Of a DNA stretch of 64,000 nucleotides, positions 335 through 12,584 are shown piece after piece. The notes under the pieces were generated by a model. It did not search any database. It was given only the letters and a program-made list of their open reading frames with translations, and was not told where the DNA came from. Where the stretch lies: assembly GCA_018669845.1 (NCBI GenBank), contig JABHSO010000063.1:1-64000 (forward strand), written 5' to 3'. Source of the stretch: Gammaproteobacteria bacterium. GTDB lineage: Bacteria; Pseudomonadota; Gammaproteobacteria; GCA-001735895. Every line of letters begins with the position of its first letter. Within the stretch, counting starts at the first letter, position 1. The translations under genes and the position numbers were made by a program.

Positions 335-3040
335 GTGTTTGGCATTAAATATATTATTTTACTGGCTGTCATCTTATTGAGCCTACTAGCTTTTGGACTG
401 GTTTGGTATACCACAGAAACTTATCAGCAATTAGTTTTTGATGATCACAGGCAATCTATACAGAATTTGCTGAAATATCGAACTTCGGAAATCTCTCAAA
501 CACTTATAAAAAAGCAGGTGAAATTAGCCAGTCGCATGCAAAGTGATGAGGGGTTTCATCAGGCCCTCGCTACAGGTGACCTGGAGTCGCTTAATGCCCA
601 TTTAAAACAAAGACTCAGTCAGTCGGTTTCCAGTACTGAAAATGTGCATTTAAAGAGTATTTTACTACGCAATGCTGATGCTAGCTTAATGGCTGCAGCA
701 TATGAGGATGATGCTAATTCCTATAATGGCTGTCCTGTCATTATTGATCAGATAAGAGAAGGAAATGAACAGTCCAGACAAAAAGCTAAAATTACTCTCT
801 GTACTTTGAATAATAATCTGATGTCAGAAGTGGTGGTACAAACAGGTACTCAGGAATCTGCTGCTTATATTCATATTATCGCCTATCTGGGGGATGAGCT
901 AATATCGATAGGTGATGAAATTAATTTGCCTATAACCATTATGGGAAACCGGGGCTTAAAGTTATATCAATCACCTTCATGGCTGGAAGTTAATCAAAGT
1001 AAAAATAATTCAACACCTGTTCTGTATACCTTGTATGGAGATGATAATGTGCCGGGTTTGGTTATTTCTAGCATATTTGATGAGAGGTTACTGAGAAATC
1101 AGGTTGATTCAGTGTATTTCAATATTATCATTGTTGCAGGGACAGCTACTTTTTCAACTCTATTGTTAGTTTTATTGTTGCTATTTTATTCTTTTAGACC
1201 CATAGATAAAGTCAGAGAATCATTGGGAGAAGTATCAAATGATCGCTTTGTCCCCATAAATGTTGAGAGTCTTCGTAATGAGTTACGAGATTTTGCTTTA
1301 GCTTACAATGCAATCATCCTGGTTCTGGAAGATGCTTCTCTGAAGCACGAAGTTGCTGAGAGAGATTTACGTTCTGAACGTGATTTTATTTCTAAAACTC
1401 TGGATTCAATAACCGATGCTGTGCTAGTGGTCAATTCCGATCGAATACTTAAACTGGTGAATCCAGCAGCTGAAAATATGCTGGGTGAAAGAGAACTGGA
1501 CCTGAAAGGTTATGCCTTTGATAATATTGTTACCTTTTTTTCAAACAGATCGCTCTCCCATATAGTGAGCTGGGAAAAGTTGCTAATTAATCCACAGCAG
1601 TTAGTGAAGCTGTATTACCAGGGAAAAGACAGTGTTAAAGAGCTGGAAATGATGGCATCTCCAATGCTTGATCTGGATCGGGAAGATGTTGGTTATGTGC
1701 TGATTTTTAAGGATATAACTGAAGACCGTATGTTGCGCCGTAAAATCAATTATGAAAGTCGACATGATAAGTTAACATCATTACTTAATCGTAAAGCGTT
1801 TGAAACTAAATTTGATGACATGATTGCTGAATCGTATCAATCATCTTATCAACATGTTCTGGTGACTATAAATATTGATCATTTTAAAGTGATTAATCAA
1901 AGCTGCGGTAATGATGCAGGGGATCTACTGCTTAAACAGGTGGCTAAAATTTTGAGTCAAAATGTACGGAAGTCTGATTTACTTTCCCGATTGGGACCAG
2001 ATGAATTTGGTTTGATATTGGCCTATGCAGAGCTTTCGGTAGCGGCTGATACAGTAAACGATATTTTGGCAAATATCTGTAAGACAGGTTTTAACTGGGA
2101 AGATGTTGAGTATCCGGTAACAGCAAGTGCAGCATTGATATCTTTTAGTGATATTGAAGATGATTTTTCAGAAGTGTTTTCCAGGTTAAACTCTGGCGCA
2201 ATGCTGGCAAAACAAAATGGAGGGAATCAATATTACCTGATTGGAGATGATGACATTAAGGTGCAGGAACATCAATCTAACCTGTCCTGGGTTGCAAAGA
2301 TTAATACAGGATTTGTCGATAAACGCTTTGAGTTATATGCCCAGCCAATTGTCCCTGTTGATGGTGAAAAAGATAAACTGTTTTATGAAATATTAATCAG
2401 ATACCAGGATGAAGATGGGGTGCTTATTCAACCGGTTGAATTTTTAGGTGCTGCAGAGCGATTTAATTTAATTGAAAAAATTGATCGTTGGGTTATTTCG
2501 GAAGCTATTCACTGGATTGTAAAAAATCCTGAGCTTAAAGATAAGGTTCAATTAAGTATTAATATTTCTGAAGCAAGTATTATGTCCAGTAGTTTCCATC
2601 GCTTTTTGTTCCAGATTTTGCAGACTGACCTGGTTGATGCGAGCAATTTTTGTTTTGAGGCGACAGAAAGTTCATTCGTAAAAGATGTGGAAAAGTCGGT
2701 TGAGTTTATTAAAAAGCTAAAGAGTTTAGGGGCTAAATTTTCACTGGATGATTTTGGTAGTGGATTATCTTCTTTGACCCATTTACAACAATTCCCATTA
2801 GATTATTTGAAAATTGACGGGGTGTATGTTGAAAATATTTTGAAATATGATTATTCCACTGTTTTTGTCAGTTCGATAACGAGAGTGGGACACAGTATGG
2901 GAATAAAAGTTATTGCAGAATCAGTGGAGTCTATTGAGATACAGAATAAATTATCAGAATCTGGTATAGATTATTTGCAGGGTTCTATTATCGCTAACCC
3001 TGCTCCTCTAGAGGAAATAGATTTCAATCAGCGTTACTGA
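335..3040 (+). CDS. Membrane PAS-GGDEF-EAL protein, probable c-di-GMP phosphodiesterase
   Basis: This 901-residue inner-membrane sensor has a transmembrane helix near residues 5-27, a periplasmic domain, a second helix near 262-286, a HAMP-like linker, a PAS domain (about 345-465), a GGDEF domain (about 475-635) and an EAL domain (about 655-895). The GGDEF signature is GPDEF at 554-558, so cyclase activity is doubtful. The EAL domain keeps its main residues: E685 in YEILIRY, the LDDFGSG and LKIDG motifs, and a late conserved Glu in AESVES. The likely net role is therefore c-di-GMP hydrolysis, possibly with GTP sensing by the GGDEF domain. The start is GTG at 335, because an in-frame stop lies at 311 and no ATG is nearby. 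The gene is monocistronic and converges on cysB. Domain calls are firm; the direction of activity is inferred. Confidence 0.9.
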   Translation: MFGIKYIILLAVILLSLLAFGLVWYTTETYQQLVFDDHRQSIQNLLKYRTSEISQTLIKKQVKLASRMQSDEGFHQALATGDLESLNAHLKQRLSQSVSSTENVHLKSILLRNADASLMAAAYEDDANSYNGCPVIIDQIREGNEQSRQKAKITLCTLNNNLMSEVVVQTGTQESAAYIHIIAYLGDELISIGDEINLPITIMGNRGLKLYQSPSWLEVNQSKNNSTPVLYTLYGDDNVPGLVISSIFDERLLRNQVDSVYFNIIIVAGTATFSTLLLVLLLLFYSFRPIDKVRESLGEVSNDRFVPINVESLRNELRDFALAYNAIILVLEDASLKHEVAERDLRSERDFISKTLDSITDAVLVVNSDRILKLVNPAAENMLGERELDLKGYAFDNIVTFFSNRSLSHIVSWEKLLINPQQLVKLYYQGKDSVKELEMMASPMLDLDREDVGYVLIFKDITEDRMLRRKINYESRHDKLTSLLNRKAFETKFDDMIAESYQSSYQHVLVTINIDHFKVINQSCGNDAGDLLLKQVAKILSQNVRKSDLLSRLGPDEFGLILAYAELSVAADTVNDILANICKTGFNWEDVEYPVTASAALISFSDIEDDFSEVFSRLNSGAMLAKQNGGNQYYLIGDDDIKVQEHQSNLSWVAKINTGFVDKRFELYAQPIVPVDGEKDKLFYEILIRYQDEDGVLIQPVEFLGAAERFNLIEKIDRWVISEAIHWIVKNPELKDKVQLSINISEASIMSSSFHRFLFQILQTDLVDASNFCFEATESSFVKDVEKSVEFIKKLKSLGAKFSLDDFGSGLSSLTHLQQFPLDYLKIDGVYVENILKYDYSTVFVSSITRVGHSMGIKVIAESVESIEIQNKLSESGIDYLQGSIIANPAPLEEIDFNQRY

Positions 3041-3073: not shown

Positions 3074-4072
3074 TTATTTATTACCCAGAGTCAGTTGTTG
3101 AAAAGTTGGAACAGTATAGTTTGACAAAATTTCATTCCGATCATTGAGTGCTCTGGTATGTACTAGCTCTTTAATGGTATCCATTTCAAGATAAGGCGTC
3201 ATCATGTGAAGAAATTCATATTGATAAGTTGAGATATGGCGAGAATGACGAAAACCTACCTTGATCATACTGTCTGGGAATAGATGGTTTGCGCTAATAC
3301 AGTCCAGCTCATCATCATGCTTCTGACCTTTTGCCATTTCCGCAATAATCCCCACACCAAAACCTAATCGAACATAAGTTTTAATGACGTCGGAATCGGT
3401 TGCAGTAAAAACCACATTGGGTTCCAGATTTGCATCATGGAAGGTTCGGTCTAGTTTTGAACGGCCTGTTAAGCCCAGCATATACGTTAAAATTGGATAG
3501 GCGGCAAGATCTGCCAGGGTGATTTCAGCTTTTGTGGTCAGCCCATGTCCTTTAGGAACGACTATATATCTATTCCATGTATAGGCAGGAATTGTGACCA
3601 GTTCATCGAACTCATCAATGGTTTCTGATGCTAAAACAAAATCAACAGAATTGTTAGCAGCCAGCTTGCACATGGCCTTAGGATTGCCCTGATGTACCTG
3701 CAAATCAATACGTGGGTATTTGCTGCTATATTGCTGCAGGATGGGCGGTAGAATAAATTGAGCCTGAGTATGAGTTGTGGCAATAGTTAAGCTGCCTCTG
3801 TTTGCATTTGAATACTCTCTGGCCGCCTGTTTAATGCTCTTAACATTGTTTAGCAGAGATTCCACGTGCTCCAGAACAGCATAGCCGGCGGGTGATATAC
3901 CCGTTAGCTTTTTGCCGGAGCGCTCGAATATTTTAATATCCAGCTCTTCTTCAAGCAGTTTAATCTGGTGGCTAACGCCAGGTTGGGAAGTATAAAGTTC
4001 TTCAGCTGCTGAAGAGACGTTAAGGTTATTTCTTACTACCGCATCAAGGAAGCGTAATTGTTGCAATTTCAC
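3074..4072 (-). CDS. cysB: CysB-type LysR transcriptional regulator
   Basis: The 332-residue protein has the length of CysB (about 324 residues) and its characteristic features. There is an N-terminal winged helix-turn-helix (MKLQQLRFLDAVVRNNLNVS, then TSQPGVSHQI), a coiled-coil linker, and an effector domain that opens with the CysB/Cbl hallmark ATTHTQA near residue 98-104. In the family this pocket binds sulfate, thiosulfate or N-acetylserine, and the protein activates the cysteine regulon. It is transcribed alone and away from the signalling cluster; no cys structural genes are adjacent. The family call is strong. The paralogue Cbl is less likely, given the length and the isolated position. 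Confidence 0.92.
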   Translation of the reverse strand: MKLQQLRFLDAVVRNNLNVSSAAEELYTSQPGVSHQIKLLEEELDIKIFERSGKKLTGISPAGYAVLEHVESLLNNVKSIKQAAREYSNANRGSLTIATTHTQAQFILPPILQQYSSKYPRIDLQVHQGNPKAMCKLAANNSVDFVLASETIDEFDELVTIPAYTWNRYIVVPKGHGLTTKAEITLADLAAYPILTYMLGLTGRSKLDRTFHDANLEPNVVFTATDSDVIKTYVRLGFGVGIIAEMAKGQKHDDELDCISANHLFPDSMIKVGFRHSRHISTYQYEFLHMMTPYLEMDTIKELVHTRALNDRNEILSNYTVPTFQQLTLGNK

Positions 4073-4439
4073 AGTAAATTCTCAGTGGTCACTTGTTTGT
4101 TATAGGTTTTAGTTATAGGGCCATGATTCTACAAGCATATGAAATACAATCAATCTTTTTGTTATAAGAATGTAATATTTCTCACAGAAGGTTGATTGTT
4201 TAATTGCTTCCTGGTGCTTTAGAGTGTTTTATTTATTGCCTTTGAGTATATGAAAACAGGGGCTTATCCCCGCTTTTTTAAACTGATGATGAAAGGTTAA
4301 TCATTTTAGATGTCAAAATTAATGAGTAAAAATGGCCTGTCTGTGTCTCTATAACATGAAAACTTAACGTACCACGGGTTGCAATTTCTGCTAGGTAAAC
4401 TATAAAAAGAGAACTTCAATTAATTATTCGAATAAAAAA
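4073..4439. other. Intergenic region between divergent cysB and the signalling cluster
   Basis: This gap of about 370 bases must hold the cysB promoter (minus strand) and the promoter of the downstream plus-strand cluster. At about 4258-4282 there is a short GGGG-CTTAT-CCCC hairpin followed by a run of T on the plus strand. It resembles a weak terminator or leader hairpin, but no plus-strand gene ends just before it. No coding potential was seen. Confidence 0.35.
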
Positions 4440-5182
4440 ATGAAATTTTTATTGTTAATTCTTATGTTCAACGTTTCCACATTATTGGCGGCAGAAGTTG
4501 AAGGTAAGATTAACATAATGACCGAAGTGTACCCTCCTTATAATATGCAGGTAGATGGTAAGCTTAAAGGTATTTCTGTTGAAATACTGGATGTCATGCT
4601 TGAGCGGATGGAGCTGGATCAAAATAGTAGTGACGTTATATTAACCAACTGGTCCAGAGCATATTCGATGCCTTAAAGAAAAAAGATTATATGGTTTTCT
4701 CAACAACCCGAACGACAAAAAGAGAAAATTTATTTAAATGGGTCGGTCCGATTGTCGAGACTAAAATAGGAATTCTAGCTCCAAAAAGTAAACATATCAC
4801 CCTTCGCTCATTGACCGACCTGAAGCAATATCGTGTGGGCGCAGTATTAAAGGATATTGGTGAGCAATTAATCCTGGAAGGCGGTGTCGATAAAAAACAT
4901 ATCCACTCTATTAGTGGCCAGAATGCGATTGAATTATCATTCAAGAAAATGGATAACAATAGAATAGATATGTTTGCCTATGATTTTGTTGTGGCTAAAT
5001 ATCAGGCAAAACTAAAGGGATATAATGTTGATGATTATGAAGAAATATATACTTTGAAAGAAGCAGAGCTTTATTATGCATTTAATAAAACCACCAGTGA
5101 TAAAACTATTGCTAAATGGCAAAATGCATTAGATACCATTAAGGATGATGGAACCTATAATAAAATTTTAGCAAAGTACTAA
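4440..5182 (+). pseudogene. Periplasmic amino-acid-type solute-binding protein, frameshifted
   Basis: Two consecutive reading frames together give a full-length (about 247 residues) extracellular solute-binding protein of the SBP_bac_3 kind. The first starts at 4440 with a signal peptide (MKFLLLILMFNVSTLLAAE) and contains the typical TEVYPPYNM motif. It stops at 4676 after NWSRAYSMP. The continuation lies in another frame from about 4670 (ALKKKDYMVFSTTRT) and runs to 5182. Adding one base near 4669 restores a continuous protein, so this is a one-base deletion or a sequencing error. The gene lies 16 bases before the SiaA homologue in the same direction, and a binding protein so placed could have been its ligand sensor. 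No ABC permease or ATPase accompanies it. Confidence 0.75.
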
Positions 5183-5198
5183 TGAAAAAGACCTTACA

Positions 5199-6869
5199 TT
5201 GAAACAAAGTATAATATTTAAAACCTTACTGGTAATAGGCACTATTATTGTCTTGATCTTTGTTGCATCGGGCTACCTGGTATCACAAAGTGACAATAAG
5301 TTGATCGCAAAAATAGTGGCCTACAATCTAGATTCTACGATGAAAGCGCTAGATTATCGGCAGGAGATAAGCCTTAAAAAAAATCAATTGGAAATGCAGG
5401 CAGTTACCAATATGATTGTAAAAAATTCATCTACATTTTTACAAAACTTTGATGTAGATGGGTTAAAGGAAAACTTACTATTTGATATGAAAGGAGATGG
5501 TATCAAAGCTATTAAAGTTTGGGATAGTTCAATGAATGAACTATTTTTATTAGCTTACAAAGACAATGGGAAAATATTTTTTAAAAATACCTTACCCAAA
5601 TCTTATGCAGATTACACACAATTCAAAAAACCAATTCATGACCTGTCAGATAAGGTTTACAATAAAAAAATAGGTGAAATTGTTCTTTTTTATGATGAAT
5701 CTATTATTACTAAAGCGATCAATGAACTAAAAAAACAGGCCGTTCAGGACATAAATAGTTTTAACGAAACTATCGATCATGAGTTGCTTCAGGCAAATGT
5801 GGTCAAATTATCTATAGCGATAGGATTTCTGGTTATTATTTTAACCGTCATTAGTATCTTGTTAATGGTTTATGTGAATAACCCGTTGAAAATACTAAAG
5901 TCTGGCCTGGATGATTTTTTTCTTTTTCTACAAAATAAAAAAAATTCTACACAAACCATTATGTTAAATACGAGTGATGAATTTGGGCAGATGGCTTATT
6001 CGTTAAATGAAAATATATCTGTCAGTGCAAAGCTGCATGAAGAGATTAGAGGGCTTAATTTCAACCTTGAGCAGAAAGTAAAAGCCAGGACATCTGAATT
6101 AGCTGAAATTAATCAGGAGCTTCAGGATTCAATTGAATATGCCTCAACTATTCAGCGATCTTTTGTAAAAGATATTTCATTGATTAAAAACAGTGTTACC
6201 GATGCTTTTTCTATCTGGCAACCCAGGGATAAAGTGGGTGGTGATTTATATATCCATGAAGAAAGTGCTGAAGGTATTTTATTCGGTGTGATTGATTGCA
6301 CCGGGCATAGTGTGCCAGGTGGATTTATGACCATGTTGGCAGGTAGTGTTATAAAAAGGCTTGCTAGCGAGTTCTTTAAAAATCCCGCAAAACTTTTAAG
6401 CGAACTCAATAAAGCTATTAAATACCAGTTAAGTCAGGAAGGTGAAAGTTCATTGTCTGATGACGGTCTCGATATGGGTTTATGCTATATAAATAAACAG
6501 AAAAATACCCTGTTGTTTTCGGGTGCTAAACTTGATTTGGTATATTTTAAAAATGATGAAATCAATATAATAAAAGCAAATAAACAAAGTATTGGATATA
6601 AAAAATCTAACTCTGATTATGAATATACAAATCATGAAATTCATGTCGATGGATCAGAGTCATTCTATTTATATTCAGATGGCATTACCGACCAGGTGGG
6701 TGGTCTTAAAAACTTTCCCTACGGCAATAAAAAATTCAAACAATTACTTTCATCCATTCAGAACAAGTCCATGACTGAGCAGGAAGAAATCATCACTGAT
6801 ACTCTACTCTCCTACCAGGGTGAAAATAGTAGAAGAGATGATGTTACAGTCATTGGTTTTCGGCTTTAA
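5199..6869 (+). CDS. siaA: SiaA-like membrane PP2C (SpoIIE-type) protein phosphatase
   Basis: This 556-residue sensor phosphatase has a transmembrane helix at about 8-28, an extracytoplasmic sensor region, a second helix near 200-222, a HAMP domain, a coiled coil and a C-terminal SpoIIE/PP2C domain (about 330-556). The metal-binding acidic motifs are all present: DKVGGDLY, GVIDCTGHSVPGG, SDGITDQVGG and the terminal RRDDVTVIGF, so it should be active. In the Pseudomonas SiaABCD pathway SiaA dephosphorylates SiaC. The genes that follow are clear SiaB and SiaC homologues. The start is TTG at 5199 with a poor ribosome-binding site. An ATG overlapping the previous stop (5182) is out of frame and ends after six codons. 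The symbol rests on architecture and gene order. Confidence 0.85.
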   Translation: MKQSIIFKTLLVIGTIIVLIFVASGYLVSQSDNKLIAKIVAYNLDSTMKALDYRQEISLKKNQLEMQAVTNMIVKNSSTFLQNFDVDGLKENLLFDMKGDGIKAIKVWDSSMNELFLLAYKDNGKIFFKNTLPKSYADYTQFKKPIHDLSDKVYNKKIGEIVLFYDESIITKAINELKKQAVQDINSFNETIDHELLQANVVKLSIAIGFLVIILTVISILLMVYVNNPLKILKSGLDDFFLFLQNKKNSTQTIMLNTSDEFGQMAYSLNENISVSAKLHEEIRGLNFNLEQKVKARTSELAEINQELQDSIEYASTIQRSFVKDISLIKNSVTDAFSIWQPRDKVGGDLYIHEESAEGILFGVIDCTGHSVPGGFMTMLAGSVIKRLASEFFKNPAKLLSELNKAIKYQLSQEGESSLSDDGLDMGLCYINKQKNTLLFSGAKLDLVYFKNDEINIIKANKQSIGYKKSNSDYEYTNHEIHVDGSESFYLYSDGITDQVGGLKNFPYGNKKFKQLLSSIQNKSMTEQEEIITDTLLSYQGENSRRDDVTVIGFRL

Positions 6870-6889
6870 AGTGAATAAAGGTTTCACGC

Positions 6890-7420
6890 ATGATTAATCT
6901 CTATAACTACAAAAATGACCTGGATTCAGATGGCATTATTTTGAGTCTGAGTGGTCCAATGAGTCATGAAATGGTTGAAAGTATTGGTCGCGCTATTCGC
7001 TTTAAAATTGGTGAGGATGGAGATAAAAGTATTGCTTTAAAAGTATTCTCGATTTTTGTTGAGCAGGTTGAAAATGTAATCAATTATTCGGTTGAAAGAA
7101 TTCCACCCGAAAGTAGCATGAGCTTTGGTATTATTGTTATCGGAAAGAAAGACGGTTCTTTTTTTATCAGCGGTGGAAATAAAATTGAGACAATAAAGCA
7201 GGAAAAGTTGGAGTATTACCTTAATAAGTTAGCGTTAATGGATAAAGACGAACTAAAAATTTATTATAAAGAACGTCGCAGAGCGGATAGGGAAGGTGAT
7301 TCAAAAGGAGCCGGTATAGGTTTTATTGAAATGGCCAGGAAATCGAGCCAACCCCTTGAATTTAGCTTTCAAAAAATTGATGATAAACATTCATTTTTTA
7401 CCATTAAAATTACTATTTAA
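6890..7420 (+). CDS. siaB: SiaB-like protein kinase (DUF6272, HATPase fold)
   Basis: This 176-residue cytoplasmic protein has the remains of a GHKL ATP-binding fold: an N-box-like VENVINYS near residues 60-67 and a glycine-rich GAGIGFIEMA near 141-150. The family (SiaB, DUF6272) phosphorylates the small switch protein SiaC, opposing SiaA. The neighbours fit exactly: PP2C phosphatase before, SiaC homologue after. It starts with ATG 20 bases after siaA, presumably in the same operon. It could be called only an anti-sigma-factor-type kinase by similarity; the SiaB identity comes from length, motifs and gene order. Confidence 0.8.
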   Translation: MINLYNYKNDLDSDGIILSLSGPMSHEMVESIGRAIRFKIGEDGDKSIALKVFSIFVEQVENVINYSVERIPPESSMSFGIIVIGKKDGSFFISGGNKIETIKQEKLEYYLNKLALMDKDELKIYYKERRRADREGDSKGAGIGFIEMARKSSQPLEFSFQKIDDKHSFFTIKITI

Positions 7421-7437
7421 AGAGCAATAGAAACGAC

Positions 7438-7818
7438 ATGGATACACTGGAAATAATAGCGACTAAATCTTCGCCAGAAATTAATTTTAATGCTCAAACG
7501 AACGTGCTAAGTATTGTTGGAGAATCTTATCCTGAAAATACAGCACAATTTTATGAGCCCGTATTCGAATGGCTGGATATATATTTAACGGAGTTAAGTG
7601 AACAGCAGGTTACGGTAAATATGGAACTTATTTATTTTAATTCCAGTAGCTCTAAAGCCTTGATGGATATATTTGATATTCTTGAGGAAGCCAGTGATGA
7701 TGGAAAAAATATCGTATTGAACTGGATTTATGATGAGGAAAATGATGCCGCTTTGGAATATGGTGAAGAGTTTGCTGAAGATATAGAAACACTTACTTTT
7801 AACCTTGTCGAAAAGTAA
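7438..7818 (+). CDS. siaC: SiaC-like switch protein (DUF1987)
   Basis: This 126-residue acidic protein carries the DUF1987/SiaC core, including the segment MELIYFNSSSSKALMDIF (residues 62-79). In Pseudomonas SiaC the phosphorylated residue is a threonine in this region. Here the equivalent is a serine in the NSSSS run, most likely S69 or a neighbour. Unphosphorylated SiaC binds and activates the cyclase SiaD. The gene sits between the siaB homologue and a hybrid CheA-like kinase, 18 bases after siaB. The family call is strong; which serine is modified is inference. Confidence 0.85.
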   Translation: MDTLEIIATKSSPEINFNAQTNVLSIVGESYPENTAQFYEPVFEWLDIYLTELSEQQVTVNMELIYFNSSSSKALMDIFDILEEASDDGKNIVLNWIYDEENDAALEYGEEFAEDIETLTFNLVEK

Positions 7819-7826
7819 AAAGCAAT

Positions 7827-9977
7827 ATGTTGTCCAGAGAAGAAAAACTGATTGAAGAGTATGAAAATATTCTTAGTAAGGATGATTTTAGTATAGGGGA
7901 ACAGGAGTTAAACAAGCTTCTGAAAGGCTATAAAAAAACATATAAGCAACTTAATAAAATAATAAAAATAAGCGATCTTCAACAGGTCGAATTAAAAGAC
8001 CTGAGTGAGTCACTCAATGTCAAAACACAAAAAACTAGATCTCTACTGGATAATGCTGACCAGGGATTTCTATCCTTTACCCATGACTGTATTATTGATG
8101 AAGAGTATTCCAGAGAGTGCATAAAGTTATTGGGGAATAGTTTGGCGGGGAAAAATTTTGCTAATATTCTTTATCCTGATGATCAAAAAAGTAATATTTT
8201 TTTACAGGAGACACTGGAAAATGTGTTGAATGAAAAAGACCCGATGATCAAAGAGGTTATGCTGTCTCTGTTACCTGATGAAGTTATCTTAAACAGAAGA
8301 GCAATAAAGGTTGACTATAAAATAGTCAGTGCTGATAAATTCATGGTTGTTTTGACCAATATAACCAAAGAGCGAATACTGGAAAAGAAGATAAAGCAGG
8401 AGCAGGAAATACTTAAAATGATTGTTGCGGTTGTTAGTGACCCTGATCAATTTTATGAGCTTAAGGATGACTTTATAAGCTTTGCAGATAATAAATCATC
8501 TTTTATAAATGACAATTTACCCTTCAGTGTCAATTTGAGTGAAATCTATAGAGATATTCATACTTTTAAAGGAAGTTTTTCGCAAATACGCATGCAGGTC
8601 ACAGCGCATGAATTACATGCTTTGGAAACGAAATTATCTGAATTGAAAAGAGGTGGAGAATATAGCAATACTGATCTTAGTCTTCTTTTGGATGAATCAA
8701 ATATTAATCAATGGATGGATAAAGATTTAGCCATTATAGGTGAAATACTCGGTAAAGAGTTTTTTGAGAAACAGCATAAACTGGTTGTTGATGATAAGTT
8801 CATGTTTAATATTGAAGATAAAATAACTCAACTACTTCATTCTGATACCCGGCACATAACAACTTATGAAACTATTTTAAGTGAGATAAATAAAGCCCGG
8901 GGTATAAGTGTTAATCAGGCACTTTCCAGTTATCCCAAACTTTGCCAGGACATTGCTAAAATTACAGATAAGGTTATTTTTGATTTTAAAGTTACTGGTG
9001 GCGAAGATGTGCTTATGCCACTGCATTTCAAACCGTTTATTAAATCGCTGGTTCATCTATTTAGAAATGCTGTAGATCATGGAATTGAAGACCTGGAAAC
9101 AAGGCTTATTAATGATAAAAGTGAGAAAGGACTCATCTCCTGCCATGTTGAAGATCATTCTGAATATATAAAAATTATTATTTCAGATGATGGGGCTGGG
9201 ATAGATGTTGATCGGCTTAAAGGGAAAGCTCTACAGGCTGGTATAGTTGATCAGAATAAGTTGCTGGTAATGACCAATAATGAAGTCTTGAATCTTATTT
9301 TTCATGAAGGTTTGTCTACCAATGAAGCGGTCAGTCAGTTGTCTGGTCGTGGTATCGGCATGAACGTGGTAAAAGTGGAAGTTGAGAAATTATCCGGGCA
9401 ACTTGATGTCGAAAGTCAAATGGGTAAAGGAACCAGTGTGACTTTAAAAATACCTATCGCCATATATGGAAACCTGATTAATATTGCTGCAAATTCCAGA
9501 GATAATATTACCATAGAATATATTCTGTCACCGGTGATTAACCGTGTAACATCCTTTCTTCAAAGTGATATGGGCTTTAACCTGAACAGGCAAGCTATCT
9601 TTACTTATACAACCATGCAGAAAGTAGGGCTCAAAAAATTTACCTCTTATATTCATATCAGTGGTTTGGTAGAAGTTTCTGTGTGCATGAGTTTCGATCA
9701 ATTCTTACTGGATAAATTACTGGAAGAGCTCAATCATGGGCACAAAGTTTTACAGGAAGAGTTATTGGAATACAGGCAAAGTGTGTCAATGGAAGTGTTA
9801 AATATTATTATTGGGAATGCGTTGTTTAATCCTTATGATCACAGTATCTTGAAAATCACATCTCCTAATATTATTGAGCATGATGAATTAACGACTGAAG
9901 GTGCTAACGAAAAAATTGCTCATGTAATAATTGATACTGAATATGGTGAAATGCAAGTTCTGGTAGGACGATTTTAA
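7827..9977 (+). CDS. CheA-like Hpt histidine kinase with C-terminal CheX-type phosphatase domain
   Basis: This 716-residue soluble protein has an N-terminal coiled coil, a PAS-like domain (about 70-190), an Hpt/P1 domain with phospho-acceptor H245 in DIHTFKGSF, and a CheA-type ATPase domain. The ATPase shows the N-box HLFRNAVDHGIED near 411-423, the G1 box SDDGAGID near 455-462 and the G2 box GRGIGMNVV near 509-517. There is no CheW domain. The C-terminal 180 residues carry the CheC/CheX/FliY signature D/S-x3-E-x2-N followed by a Pro: SVSMEVLNIIIGNA near 652-665, with the Pro 21 residues after the Asn (usually 23). Kinase and receiver phosphatase thus seem to sit on one chain. Two CheY-like receivers follow directly. 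Domain calls are firm except the PAS domain. Confidence 0.85.
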   Translation: MLSREEKLIEEYENILSKDDFSIGEQELNKLLKGYKKTYKQLNKIIKISDLQQVELKDLSESLNVKTQKTRSLLDNADQGFLSFTHDCIIDEEYSRECIKLLGNSLAGKNFANILYPDDQKSNIFLQETLENVLNEKDPMIKEVMLSLLPDEVILNRRAIKVDYKIVSADKFMVVLTNITKERILEKKIKQEQEILKMIVAVVSDPDQFYELKDDFISFADNKSSFINDNLPFSVNLSEIYRDIHTFKGSFSQIRMQVTAHELHALETKLSELKRGGEYSNTDLSLLLDESNINQWMDKDLAIIGEILGKEFFEKQHKLVVDDKFMFNIEDKITQLLHSDTRHITTYETILSEINKARGISVNQALSSYPKLCQDIAKITDKVIFDFKVTGGEDVLMPLHFKPFIKSLVHLFRNAVDHGIEDLETRLINDKSEKGLISCHVEDHSEYIKIIISDDGAGIDVDRLKGKALQAGIVDQNKLLVMTNNEVLNLIFHEGLSTNEAVSQLSGRGIGMNVVKVEVEKLSGQLDVESQMGKGTSVTLKIPIAIYGNLINIAANSRDNITIEYILSPVINRVTSFLQSDMGFNLNRQAIFTYTTMQKVGLKKFTSYIHISGLVEVSVCMSFDQFLLDKLLEELNHGHKVLQEELLEYRQSVSMEVLNIIIGNALFNPYDHSILKITSPNIIEHDELTTEGANEKIAHVIIDTEYGEMQVLVGRF

Positions 9978-9986
9978 GGAGTTATT

Positions 9987-10394
9987 GTGGGGAAAATACT
10001 AAATATTCTAATTGTTGATGATTCTCTGATAATGAGAAAAAACCTGATAAGAAACCTGGATATTCTCGGTCATAAAGTGATTGCTGAAGCCCAGGATGGA
10101 CTGGAAGGTATTGATAGTTATAAAAGTAATAATCCTGATCTTGTTACTATGGATATCACCATGCCGGGAATGGATGGAATTACTGCCGTTAAAAAAATTA
10201 AAGAAATACACGCAGAGAGTAATATTATAATGGTCACCTCTCATGGGCAGGAGTCCATGGTGATGGCGGCCTTAAAAGCGGGTGCCAAAGGTTATATAAT
10301 GAAACCGGTAACTCCAGATAAATTGAGGGAATCTATCGGGAGGATTTATCCCGAACTGGCCGGTGAAACTGAAGAAGAGCTACTTGATTTTTAG
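9987..10394 (+). CDS. Stand-alone CheY-like response regulator
   Basis: The 135-residue receiver domain has no output domain. Acidic pocket D11-D12, phospho-acceptor D56 in TMDITMPGMDG, switch Thr in MVTSHGQ and Lys in YIMKP are all present. It ends in an acidic tail (ETEEELLDF). The start is GTG at 9987, supported by AAGGAG five bases upstream that overlaps the kinase stop codon, so it is translationally close to the kinase. It is the probable first phospho-acceptor of the upstream CheA-like protein. Its downstream partner is not evident from sequence; the SiaC/cyclase proteins are candidates by position. Confidence 0.9.
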   Translation: MGKILNILIVDDSLIMRKNLIRNLDILGHKVIAEAQDGLEGIDSYKSNNPDLVTMDITMPGMDGITAVKKIKEIHAESNIIMVTSHGQESMVMAALKAGAKGYIMKPVTPDKLRESIGRIYPELAGETEEELLDF

Positions 10395-10447
10395 CGTTTC
10401 TTATTCACTATTTTGAAATCAAACTAAAAAATATTGCGAGGTTTAAA

Positions 10448-10864
10448 ATGTTAAATATTTTAGTAGTTGATGACTCTTCTATGGCTATACGGAATATATC
10501 AACCTATATTAATAATATAGGTCATAAGGTCGTAGGCGAAGCATATTCTGGCAAGGAAGCCGTAGAAAAGTGCAAAAGTTTAAATCCTGATTTGATTACG
10601 ATGGATATAACTATGCCTGAACTGGATGGTGTAAGTGATGGTATTGCTGCGGTTAAGCAGATAAAAAAGTTTAACCAGACTGTCGATATCATTATGGTGA
10701 CTTCTCATGGACAGGAAAATCTAATTTCTCAAGCGTTACAGGAAGGAGCTAAAGGTTATATTTTAAAGCCACTGAATGAAGAGAAGCTGGCTAGAGCTAT
10801 TGGAGCCATTAATAAAAAATATCATCAGGATCTTCTTCAGGATGAAGATGAGTACCTGTTGTAA
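10448..10864 (+). CDS. Second stand-alone CheY-like response regulator
   Basis: This 138-residue receiver is a close paralogue of the preceding one. It has D8-D9, phospho-acceptor D53 in TMDITMPELDG, MVTSHGQEN and YILKP. It carries a four-residue insertion (VSDG) just after the conserved DG that follows the phospho-site, and an acidic tail (LLQDEDEYLL). It starts with ATG at 10448 after a 53-base gap with a GAGG ribosome-binding site. A kinase with two CheYs suggests an output receiver and a phosphate sink, or two outputs. This is inference from chemotaxis systems. Confidence 0.9.
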   Translation: MLNILVVDDSSMAIRNISTYINNIGHKVVGEAYSGKEAVEKCKSLNPDLITMDITMPELDGVSDGIAAVKQIKKFNQTVDIIMVTSHGQENLISQALQEGAKGYILKPLNEEKLARAIGAINKKYHQDLLQDEDEYLL

Positions 10865-10907
10865 TAATACTTTTTTTATCAGCTAAATTTATAAAGTCTG
10901 CTAAATA

Positions 10908-11888
10908 ATGAATGATTATAAAACAACTGAAATTGAAAGCTTAATCAGTCTTGATATGTTTGACTGGAGCTCTCTATTTGCAATAAGCATTGTTGACTTG
11001 CAAAGCTTTGAAGTGGTTTATATCAATAATGCCATGAAGACTATTATGGCAAATTCAAATGCTAAAAATTGTTGGGAAGCAAAATATGGACTACAGTCCC
11101 CCTGCATGTGGTGTAAAGCCCAGGAGCTCATCAATAAAGCGAAACTAACGACGAATGATTCACAGTCTGAGCAATATGCAACTTATGAAAATTTTAATGA
11201 GGGTGCCAATAAGTGGTATCAAATACAGGAAAAACTTACTGAACTGAAAAATGGTCATCAATATTTAATTTCCTTTGCCCTTGATATCAGTATTCAAAAA
11301 GAAGCGCAAAGTCAGTTTATTAATTCTCATGTTCAGCTTAGGCAGAAAACATTGGCTTTGGAAGAAGCCAGGAAGCAATTAAAAATCCAGGCCACTCAAG
11401 ATCCATTAACGGGATTATATAATAGAAGATACCTTCAAGATGTATCTCAAAAGTTAATTAATCTGGCCCGACGAGAAAAACAGGACTTGAGCGTGATTAT
11501 GCTGGATATTGATAAATTCAAAAATATCAATGATTCATATGGCCATGGAACGGGTGATGCCGTGATTAAACGCCTGGCTTCTTTGCTTCAGAAGTACTCT
11601 CGAAAAAGTGATGTAATTTCCAGGATTGGAGGTGAAGAATTTGCAATTTTACTTCCTAATACCAGTAAAAAAGGCGCATATGGAGTAGCCATGAAAATCA
11701 CTGAAATGGTAGGGAAACAGAAAGTTAAAATAAATAAAACCGACAGCCTTCAGTTTACTATTAGTTCTGGAATCGATGGTGTTGATCTTGAAAGCGATCA
11801 AAATTTAGATGCGGCTTTAACCCGGGCCGACTCAGCTATGTATCAGGCCAAAACTACCGGTAGAAATAAAGTTATTTTGAATGATTAA
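10908..11888 (+). CDS. PAS-GGDEF diguanylate cyclase in the SiaD position
   Basis: This 326-residue cytoplasmic protein has a PAS-like N-terminal domain (about 15-130) with a cysteine cluster, NCW then PCMWC, around residues 55-70. A long helix (about 135-165) leads into a GGDEF domain that begins at QATQDPLTGLYNRRY. The active-site motif is an intact GGEEF in RIGGEEFAILL near 238-248, with an RKSD product-inhibition I-site five residues before. It should make c-di-GMP. In the Sia pathway the cyclase SiaD is activated by SiaC through its helical stalk. The stalk and gene order here suggest the same, but the PAS domain is extra, so I leave the symbol empty. Confidence 0.88.
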   Translation: MNDYKTTEIESLISLDMFDWSSLFAISIVDLQSFEVVYINNAMKTIMANSNAKNCWEAKYGLQSPCMWCKAQELINKAKLTTNDSQSEQYATYENFNEGANKWYQIQEKLTELKNGHQYLISFALDISIQKEAQSQFINSHVQLRQKTLALEEARKQLKIQATQDPLTGLYNRRYLQDVSQKLINLARREKQDLSVIMLDIDKFKNINDSYGHGTGDAVIKRLASLLQKYSRKSDVISRIGGEEFAILLPNTSKKGAYGVAMKITEMVGKQKVKINKTDSLQFTISSGIDGVDLESDQNLDAALTRADSAMYQAKTTGRNKVILND

Positions 11889-11908
11889 ACTCTACGTTGT
11901 TGGAGAGT

Positions 11909-11925
11909 GGTGCGCATGGCGCACC
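11909..11925. repeat. REP-like palindrome, copy 1
   Basis: A perfect 7-bp stem GGTGCGC / GCGCACC surrounds the loop ATG, in the gap between the convergent cyclase and HAD genes. The same stem, with loop CGT, recurs at 15370-15386. It has no T-run. It is probably a REP-type or intrinsic mRNA-end hairpin that serves both strands. Confidence 0.6.
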
Positions 11926-11945
11926 CTTCTATGATATTAATTATT

Positions 11946-12584
11946 TTAACAAATTTCCTCATTTATCAGGTCGGCGATTTCTTCCATAGACTGAAAACTT
12001 ATGGCTTGTGGGTTAAAGTTCTCTTCATTGTCCGGGTTGAAAAATAAAGTAATCATGCCAGCATTAAGACCGGCTTCAATACCTACCGCACTATCTTCAA
12101 TAACGATGCATTGATCTGTTGAAAATCCCATGTCTTTTGCGGCATGCAGAAATAGTCCTGGATCGGGTTTCCATATCTCGATGTCATAAGCACTGTACAT
12201 ATTGTGTCCAAAATATTTAGTTAACCCACACACCCTAACTGATAATTCGATTTTACTCATGGGACCGCTGGATACGACTGCTTTGCTTTGTTTGAGTTGA
12301 TCAAGTGCCGTAATGATGCCGTCAATGGGTTTCAGGTCTGCTTCAAACAGTTGTGCAACTAACTCCCGATAACTGGAAGTAAAGTTATCGGCCAGAGTAA
12401 TCTCATATTCATTACTGAGATTATCAAGAATATTGGCCATTTTCCAGCCACTGAATCGGGATGTTAATTCATCGGCATCCAGAGTGATACCAAGGGTTTT
12501 AAATTTGGTGGCTAATGCGATGTTGCCCAGTCTTTCACTGTCAACCAGTGTGCCATCACAGTCGAAGAGTAAACATTTTGGCAT
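11946..12584 (-). CDS. HAD-family sugar phosphatase, YieH-like
   Basis: This 212-residue haloacid-dehalogenase phosphatase shows motif I LLFDCDGTLVDSE at the N-terminus, motif II near SSGPMSK, motif III Lys in IWKPDPGLFLHAA and motif IV in VIEDSAVGIEAGLNAGM. The cap is the helical type of beta-phosphoglucomutase/YieH proteins. Escherichia coli YieH acts on 6-phosphogluconate and similar sugar phosphates; the substrate here cannot be read from sequence. It is transcribed alone, convergent with the cyclase gene, and is followed upstream on the same strand by an acetyltransferase. Confidence 0.88.
   Translation of the reverse strand: MPKCLLFDCDGTLVDSERLGNIALATKFKTLGITLDADELTSRFSGWKMANILDNLSNEYEITLADNFTSSYRELVAQLFEADLKPIDGIITALDQLKQSKAVVSSGPMSKIELSVRVCGLTKYFGHNMYSAYDIEIWKPDPGLFLHAAKDMGFSTDQCIVIEDSAVGIEAGLNAGMITLFFNPDNEENFNPQAISFQSMEEIADLINEEIC

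Follow-up and report, generated by a model that had tools for sequence, protein, structure and literature searches.

A cluster of eight genes on contig JABHSO010000063.1 of the gammaproteobacterial assembly GCA_018669845.1 combines a SiaABC-type Ser/Thr partner switch with a CheA-like histidine kinase, two CheY proteins, and a diguanylate cyclase. The window analyzed here is the whole stretch of 64,000 nucleotides (positions 1 to 64,000), which is nearly all of one 64-kb contig in a draft assembly of 233 contigs. Open reading frames (ORFs), Pfam, and NCBIfam bear out a preliminary description of the sequence as to the order and extent of the genes, all on the + strand: binding protein (broken by a frameshift), PP2C phosphatase, SiaB kinase, SiaC, CheA-like kinase, CheY, CheY, and cyclase (Table 1). 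The same description placed a CheA/CheX-CheY-CheY relay between SiaC and the cyclase, and this relay is present, with the correction that CheX is the C-terminal domain of the kinase and not a separate gene. From siaA on, the intergenic gaps are 20, 17, 8, 9, 53, and 43 bp. These tight gaps, and the absence of any terminator-like site on the + strand within the cluster, fit an operon.

Table 1. Features of the cluster and its surroundings (window coordinates unless a locus is named).
Feature	Position	Strand	Evidence or remark
Periplasmic solute-binding protein SBP_bac_3, frameshifted ~4655-4690	4440..5182	+	PF00497 in ORF 4691-5182
SiaA-like membrane sensor with C-terminal PP2C/SpoIIE phosphatase, TTG start	5199..6869	+	PF07228 E=5.7e-19; NF038263 E=4.5e-75
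SiaB-family protein kinase	6890..7420	+	NF038262 179 bits (cut-off 85); PF19788
SiaC	7438..7818	+	PF09345 E=2.1e-45, 153.7 bits
CheA-like histidine kinase: stalk, PAS-like region, Hpt, P3/P4 kinase, CheX	7827..9977	+	
Putative SiaC-binding stalk of the kinase, residues 27-63	7905..8015	+	SiaD-type stalk profile E=1.4e-6; NF038266
Hpt domain, phospho-acceptor His245	8442..8768	+	PF01627 E=7e-4, under the Pfam cut-off; HTFKG
CheA-type ATPase domain	9045..9458	+	PF02518 E=4.7e-15; Foldseek to CheA P3P4 4xiv
CheX domain, ExxN motif (E656, N659), predicted CheY-P phosphatase	9642..9911	+	PF13690 E=9.7e-8
Single-domain CheY-like receiver 1	9987..10394	+	PF00072; phospho-acceptor Asp present
Single-domain CheY-like receiver 2	10448..10864	+	PF00072; phospho-acceptor Asp present
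PAS-like + GGDEF diguanylate cyclase, no SiaC stalk	10908..11888	+	PF00990 E=1.3e-47
Inserted unit, about 7.7 kb	4187..11945	.	Between HAD-hydrolase gene and cysB; G004 comparison
HAD-hydrolase gene, flank	11946-12584	-	
cysB, flank	3074-4072	-	
G807-type fusion, SiaA sensor + CheA-like kinase	L113:8337-10646	-	Natural swap, histidine-kinase output in place of PP2C

The Partner-Switch Genes

Profile matches of its first genes identify the cluster as a member of the SiaABC family. SiaA scores 253 bits against NF038263, under the equivalog cut-off, and the best structural match of its model is the PP2C domain of Pseudomonas aeruginosa SiaA (6k4e). SiaC scores 121 bits against the equivalog SiaC model, below the cut-off of 150, and matches 6kko and 7e6g with a phmmer E of ~1e-23. 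In this alignment NTS pairs with NSS, and the predicted phospho-site of the window protein, Ser69, is aligned to P. aeruginosa Thr68. SiaC contact residues Y66, N68, S70, M76, D80, E111, and D115 are retained. As in the P. aeruginosa system, SiaB would phosphorylate SiaC and SiaA would dephosphorylate it.

The apparent TTG start of siaA at 5199 is shared by orthologues at loci L037, L111, L112, and L113, the G807 fusion included, as a kept rare start codon. In the binding-protein gene, one reading frame runs from 4440 to about 4675 and another continues to 5182. Intact homologues, 58-67% identical, occur in genomes G248, G796, G798, and G807; in a draft assembly, such a break may also stem from an error of sequencing.

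The CheA-like Kinase and Its Stalk

The catalytic parts of the kinase are well conserved. His245 of the Hpt domain, in HTFKG (HxxKG), is invariant across 7 homologues, as are the ATPase motifs, and the N and G boxes of the ATPase are retained. The CheX domain scores 32.4 bits against a PF13690 cut-off of 27, and E656 and N659 are invariant among the homologues compared; the AlphaFold model of this region has low confidence. A sequence search of the PDB gave no match for the window CheX domain and weak matches only for a stand-alone CheX from G807. A Pfam scan of the kinase found no CheW-like P5 domain, and CheX occupies that place. Since it lacks a CheW-like domain, the kinase is, by its predicted architecture, a non-canonical CheA. 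RsbT-type control of the kinase was considered and rejected, as no RsbU N-terminal domain is among its Pfam matches.

The N-terminus of the kinase resembles the helical stalk through which SiaC engages the diguanylate cyclase SiaD. A profile built from the stalks of 17 GGDEF-type SiaD homologues, with the window and its G248 orthologue left out, matches the window kinase (E=1.4e-6) and the orthologues in G248 (4e-8), G796 (2e-9), and G798 (5e-9). The same profile does not match the window cyclase, SiaA, or CheYs, nor the cyclases of G248, G796, and G807. Positions 50-94 of the SiaD model NF038266 weakly match kinase residues 23-67 (E=8e-4), which is exactly the stalk region. The two stalk sequences are YKQLNKIIKISDLQQVELKD in the window kinase and HKQLRRLEKVARISDRYQQMMRD in SiaD.

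P. aeruginosa SiaC engages the SiaD stalk at two motifs, with SiaD contacts that include K77, V78, R80, I81, S82, D83, Q86, R90, and D91 (PMC8457831). In the 7e6g sequence these residues align with K44, I45, K47, I48, S49, D50, Q53, K57, and D58 of the kinase. AlphaFold predicts a continuous helix, at low confidence, for kinase residues 25-76. Among the kinases of this family, 4/4 members with SiaC have the stalk and 0/4 members without SiaC do. Judged from the stalk sequence, the proposed action of SiaC on the kinase is well supported.

Several observations weigh against this reading and the circuit built on it. Three SiaD contacts are changed in the kinase (R84 to L51, Y85 to Q52, and M88 to E55), as are three contact residues of SiaC (I71 to S72, R103 to A104, and L107 to Y108). 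The kinase has one SiaC motif, while SiaD has two. The stalk is modeled with a predicted local distance difference test (pLDDT) score of about 55. The four kinases that carry the stalk are closely related to one another and hence do not represent four independent events. Further down the proposed circuit, the evidence that a CheY would act on the cyclase consists of adjacency and one Shewanella precedent. The AlphaFold models as a whole are of low confidence (mean pLDDT 63 and 59), and their better parts match CheA P3P4 (4xiv) and SiaA-PP2C (6k4e).

Relatives of the Cluster

A search for the same eight-gene order, proposed in the preliminary description, found it complete in G248 (JAHXIV010000011, from a gammaproteobacterium that lives in symbiosis with the bivalve Taylorina) and G796. 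In G798 it extends to the contig end after the first CheY (contig JADGEK010000083). All are gammaproteobacteria, and their kinases are 73% (G248), 71% (G796), and 69% (G798) identical to that of the window. Since the set recurs complete in two genomes and partly in a third, the gene order is not due to chance. A scan of genome contigs for relatives gave two true ones (L108 and L109) and a weak, unrelated match (L110).

Kinase blocks and siaABC do occur apart, a finding that had been named beforehand as grounds for doubting the link if the separation were random. Related kinases without SiaABC are found in G807, G047, G096, and G108. The separation is not random: each of these kinases lacks the stalk and carries a different input module instead. 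Ahead of the same kinase core are a receiver domain in G096, repeated PAS domains in G047, and an unrelated N-terminal region in G108. A 770-residue fusion in G807, which belongs to the family of G248, unites the sensor half of SiaA (51% identity across 304 residues) with the kinase (41% identity, PAS-like region through ATPase). No stalk, PP2C domain, SiaB, or SiaC was found at the fusion locus or nearby; the fusion gene is followed by genes for the binding protein, a stand-alone CheX, one CheY, a PAS protein without further domains, and a PAS-GGDEF protein. The simplest reading of these sequences is that the kinase accepts varied inputs and that SiaC is the input here. Because G807, without SiaB, SiaC, or a PP2C domain, joins the SiaA sensor straight to the kinase, SiaABC would be placed upstream of the kinase and in series with it.

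That two unrelated signaling sets merely lie side by side, functionally unlinked, is barely credible. The related kinase blocks without SiaABC speak for such a view, which is opposed by the same order in three other genomes with kinases 69-73% identical, the tight gaps, an empty site in a related species, and a stalk common only to members with SiaC.

The empty site is in G004, of the same genus (CysB 96% identical). The spacing between the HAD-hydrolase gene and cysB is 143 bp in that genome and 7.9 kb in the window, where similarity to G004 picks up again at 4187. The kinase is absent from all seven other genomes of the genus. Given the 143-bp empty site of this sister species, the cluster has been gained or lost as one unit. 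GC content is 0.325-0.36 inside the inserted unit and 0.38-0.40 in the flanks. In view of this low GC and the empty site, the cluster was likely acquired in one piece by transfer, with loss in the other genus members as the alternative. No convincing flanking repeats were found as a trace of insertion. Just past cysB and outside the inserted unit, a membrane PAS-GGDEF-EAL protein at 335-3040 is a second enzyme of cyclic di-GMP (c-di-GMP).

The CheYs and the Cyclase

The window cyclase carries the motifs of an active diguanylate cyclase, with GGEEF (A-site) at residue 241 and RKSD, an RxxD inhibitory I-site, at 232. Its PAS region is assigned by homology, and Pfam makes no PAS call there. A C-x11-CxxC motif at residues 55-69 of the PAS-like region is kept in G248 and G096 and may serve metal binding or redox sensing. 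Because the stalk sits in the kinase and none is found in the cyclase, the latter is, judged by sequence, not a SiaD.

The location of the stalk bears on the proposal, made in the preliminary description, that Ser/Thr switching and a phosphorelay both feed c-di-GMP synthesis. Their coupling holds: both lie in a single conserved unit, with a cyclase as its last gene, that recurs in other families and at one site is either wholly present or wholly absent. The picture of two separate inputs needs revision, as the stalk is on the kinase and the G807 fusion places SiaABC upstream, in series. Convergence of two inputs on the cyclase was accordingly set aside as the main model, the cyclase being without a stalk, in favor of a series circuit. 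Under the two-input model, the PAS-GGDEF cyclase would be a direct target of SiaC, like its P. aeruginosa counterpart, and separately a target of the kinase-CheY relay. The cluster does end in a cyclase, like siaABCD, and 31 of the 68 siaC loci surveyed below have a stalk-bearing GGDEF client. We nevertheless regard such parallel inputs as very unlikely, given that the stalk profile matches the kinase and not the cyclases of the window, G248, G796, and G807, and that the related cyclase of G807 occurs without any SiaC.

Both CheYs retain the acid pair and the acceptor Asp. Two CheYs are present where SiaABC is, and one in relatives without SiaABC; a phosphate sink or two targets may account for the difference. 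The idea that a CheY is a Cle-type c-di-GMP-binding effector was set aside; the CheY tails have no arginine-rich stretch.

SiaC could also gate the kinase while the cyclase answers its own PAS signal and the CheYs act mainly elsewhere, for instance on the flagellar motor. Stand-alone CheYs can diffuse, the genome has at least 5 further CheA-type kinase genes, and the partner PAS protein in G096 is a histidine kinase, not a cyclase. This arrangement is nonetheless rather improbable. The pairing of a CheY with a neighboring PAS protein is kept in G248, G796, G807, and G096 despite different inputs, and in Shewanella oneidensis phosphorylated CheY3 binds diguanylate cyclases (PMC7666153).

SiaC-Adjacent Stalks in Other Genomes

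To place the kinase among other SiaC neighbors, 68 siaC loci from a class sample and a phylum sample were surveyed, counting ORFs of at least 200 amino acids and taking E<0.01 as a match. Held-out genes directly downstream of siaC match the stalk profile in 26 of 47 cases, against 3 of 1338 other ORFs (Fisher p ~5e-39, a guide only, as the 68 loci are phylogenetically non-independent). The 3 non-adjacent matches also sit in siaC loci.

By similarity and Pfam, stalk-bearing clients are GGDEF proteins at 31 loci, GAF-HD-GYP proteins at 12, HisKA-type histidine kinases at 5, Guanylate_cyc proteins at 4, a PP2C protein at 1, and the CheA-like kinase at 2 (window and G248), although several stalk matches are weak (E 0.04 to 0.7), chiefly those of shorter SiaD forms and HD-GYP proteins. 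The GAF-HD-GYP proteins, with a similar stalk (several weak), lie directly downstream of siaC at L056, L061, L063, L069, L074, L077, L080, L082, L085, L090, L094, and L099, where SiaC may control c-di-GMP breakdown. HisKA/HATPase histidine kinases with SiaD-like stalks are found at L050, L052 (weak), L060, L075, and L089, four of the five directly downstream of siaC; at L075 a response regulator with a DNA-binding domain adjoins the kinase. A hybrid kinase at L045 was rejected as a sixth client of this type, its match being too weak (E=1.3). Because HisKA-type stalk bearers occur in other siaC loci, siaC-adjacent histidine kinases are not confined to this cluster. G248 carries three siaC genes: one in this kinase cluster, a second for which no client turned up within reach, and a third accompanied by a stalk-bearing PP2C (L037, L042, and L044).

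On balance we lean toward a view of SiaC as a general plug-in regulator, in which at least five enzyme classes (GGDEF, HD-GYP, adenylate/guanylate cyclase, PP2C, and two histidine-kinase types) have been fitted with the same short helical stalk, encoded beside siaC. In the present cluster a Ser/Thr switch would directly gate a CheA-like kinase, giving a cascade of three chemistries (Ser phosphorylation, His-Asp relay, and c-di-GMP) in series.

Proposed Mechanism

In this cluster a CheA-like histidine kinase has probably replaced a diguanylate cyclase as the client of a SiaABC partner switch, in a series circuit that would run from binding protein to SiaA/SiaB, SiaC, kinase, CheY, and PAS-cyclase. 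PP2C activity would be set by the SiaA membrane sensor together with the periplasmic binding protein, which is broken in the window. Ser69 of SiaC would be phosphorylated by SiaB and dephosphorylated by SiaA, these steps before SiaC being modeled on the P. aeruginosa system. We infer from the stalk evidence that unphosphorylated SiaC would bind the helical stalk at the kinase N-terminus and alter the dimer state. Binding would most likely turn on phosphotransfer from His245 to both CheYs, and the CheX domain would strip phosphate from CheY. Phosphorylated CheY would then act on the PAS-GGDEF protein and change c-di-GMP, as suggested by the kept gene order and the Shewanella precedent (PMC7666153).

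The activating sign is proposed by analogy: stalk binding in SiaD promotes the active dimer (PMC8457831), and the ordering of the RsbU linker by RsbT is activating (PMC12143880). The opposite sign, with stalk binding locking the kinase in an off or phosphatase state and SiaB activity switching the relay on, is unlikely in the face of both analogies but deserves consideration, for the sign of control is not readable from sequence and the CheX domain is an opposing output in the same chain.

Comparison with Known Systems

The cluster shares with SiaABCD of P. aeruginosa (PMC7647112, PMC8457831) the SiaA PP2C, the SiaB kinase, the SiaC switch, and their order, and in both the client directly after siaC has an N-terminal helical stalk with K-[IV]-x-[RK]-I-S-D-x-x-Q. 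Where P. aeruginosa has a GGDEF protein as client, a CheA-like kinase containing PAS, Hpt, and CheX parts takes that role here. The cyclase here is stalkless and at the cluster end, the binding protein and two CheYs are extra, and the switch residue is Ser in place of Thr.

Phosphorelays and partner switches are also coupled in HptB-HsbR-HsbA-HsbD of P. aeruginosa, where they lead in series to a diguanylate cyclase and the relay acts on the partner switch. The order is reversed in the present cluster, in which the partner switch would act on the relay. The HptB-HsbR-HsbA-HsbD system is named in PMC8457831.

For stressosome-linked histidine kinases that carry an RsbU N-terminal domain (PMC12143880, PMC9237108), it has likewise been proposed that a component of a Ser/Thr partner switch controls the kinase by way of a linker adjoining its catalytic part, with two-component or cyclase outputs downstream. 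Those systems use RsbT and the RsbU_N domain in stressosomes, while a SiaC-family protein and a SiaD-type stalk are found here. The single-domain CheY3 of S. oneidensis binds diguanylate cyclases (PdgA, PdgB, and SO4207) and controls biofilm (PMC7666153), but it is a chemotaxis CheY without SiaABC or a dedicated kinase in a cluster. No description of a SiaC-controlled histidine kinase was found in the open-licence papers searched, which does not prove absence.

Significance

The cluster is a real, conserved variant of SiaABC with a new client, and it resembles the RsbT stressosome-kinase couplings by way of a different adaptor. It has been guessed that DUF1987/SiaC proteins modulate adjacent proteins (PMC8457831), and this guess becomes a concrete, testable rule, an ISDxxQ-type stalk in the gene beside siaC. 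Modular exchange of signaling linkers has also been proposed (PMC12143880). The relatives of the cluster offer a natural experiment for it: a sensor that drives PP2C in one species is coupled straight to a histidine kinase in a second, and kinases without SiaC lack the stalk. The arrangement opens a possible route from Ser/Thr phosphorylation to histidine-kinase control. Two normally separate signaling chemistries seem to be joined end to end, with the biofilm signal c-di-GMP as the probable output.

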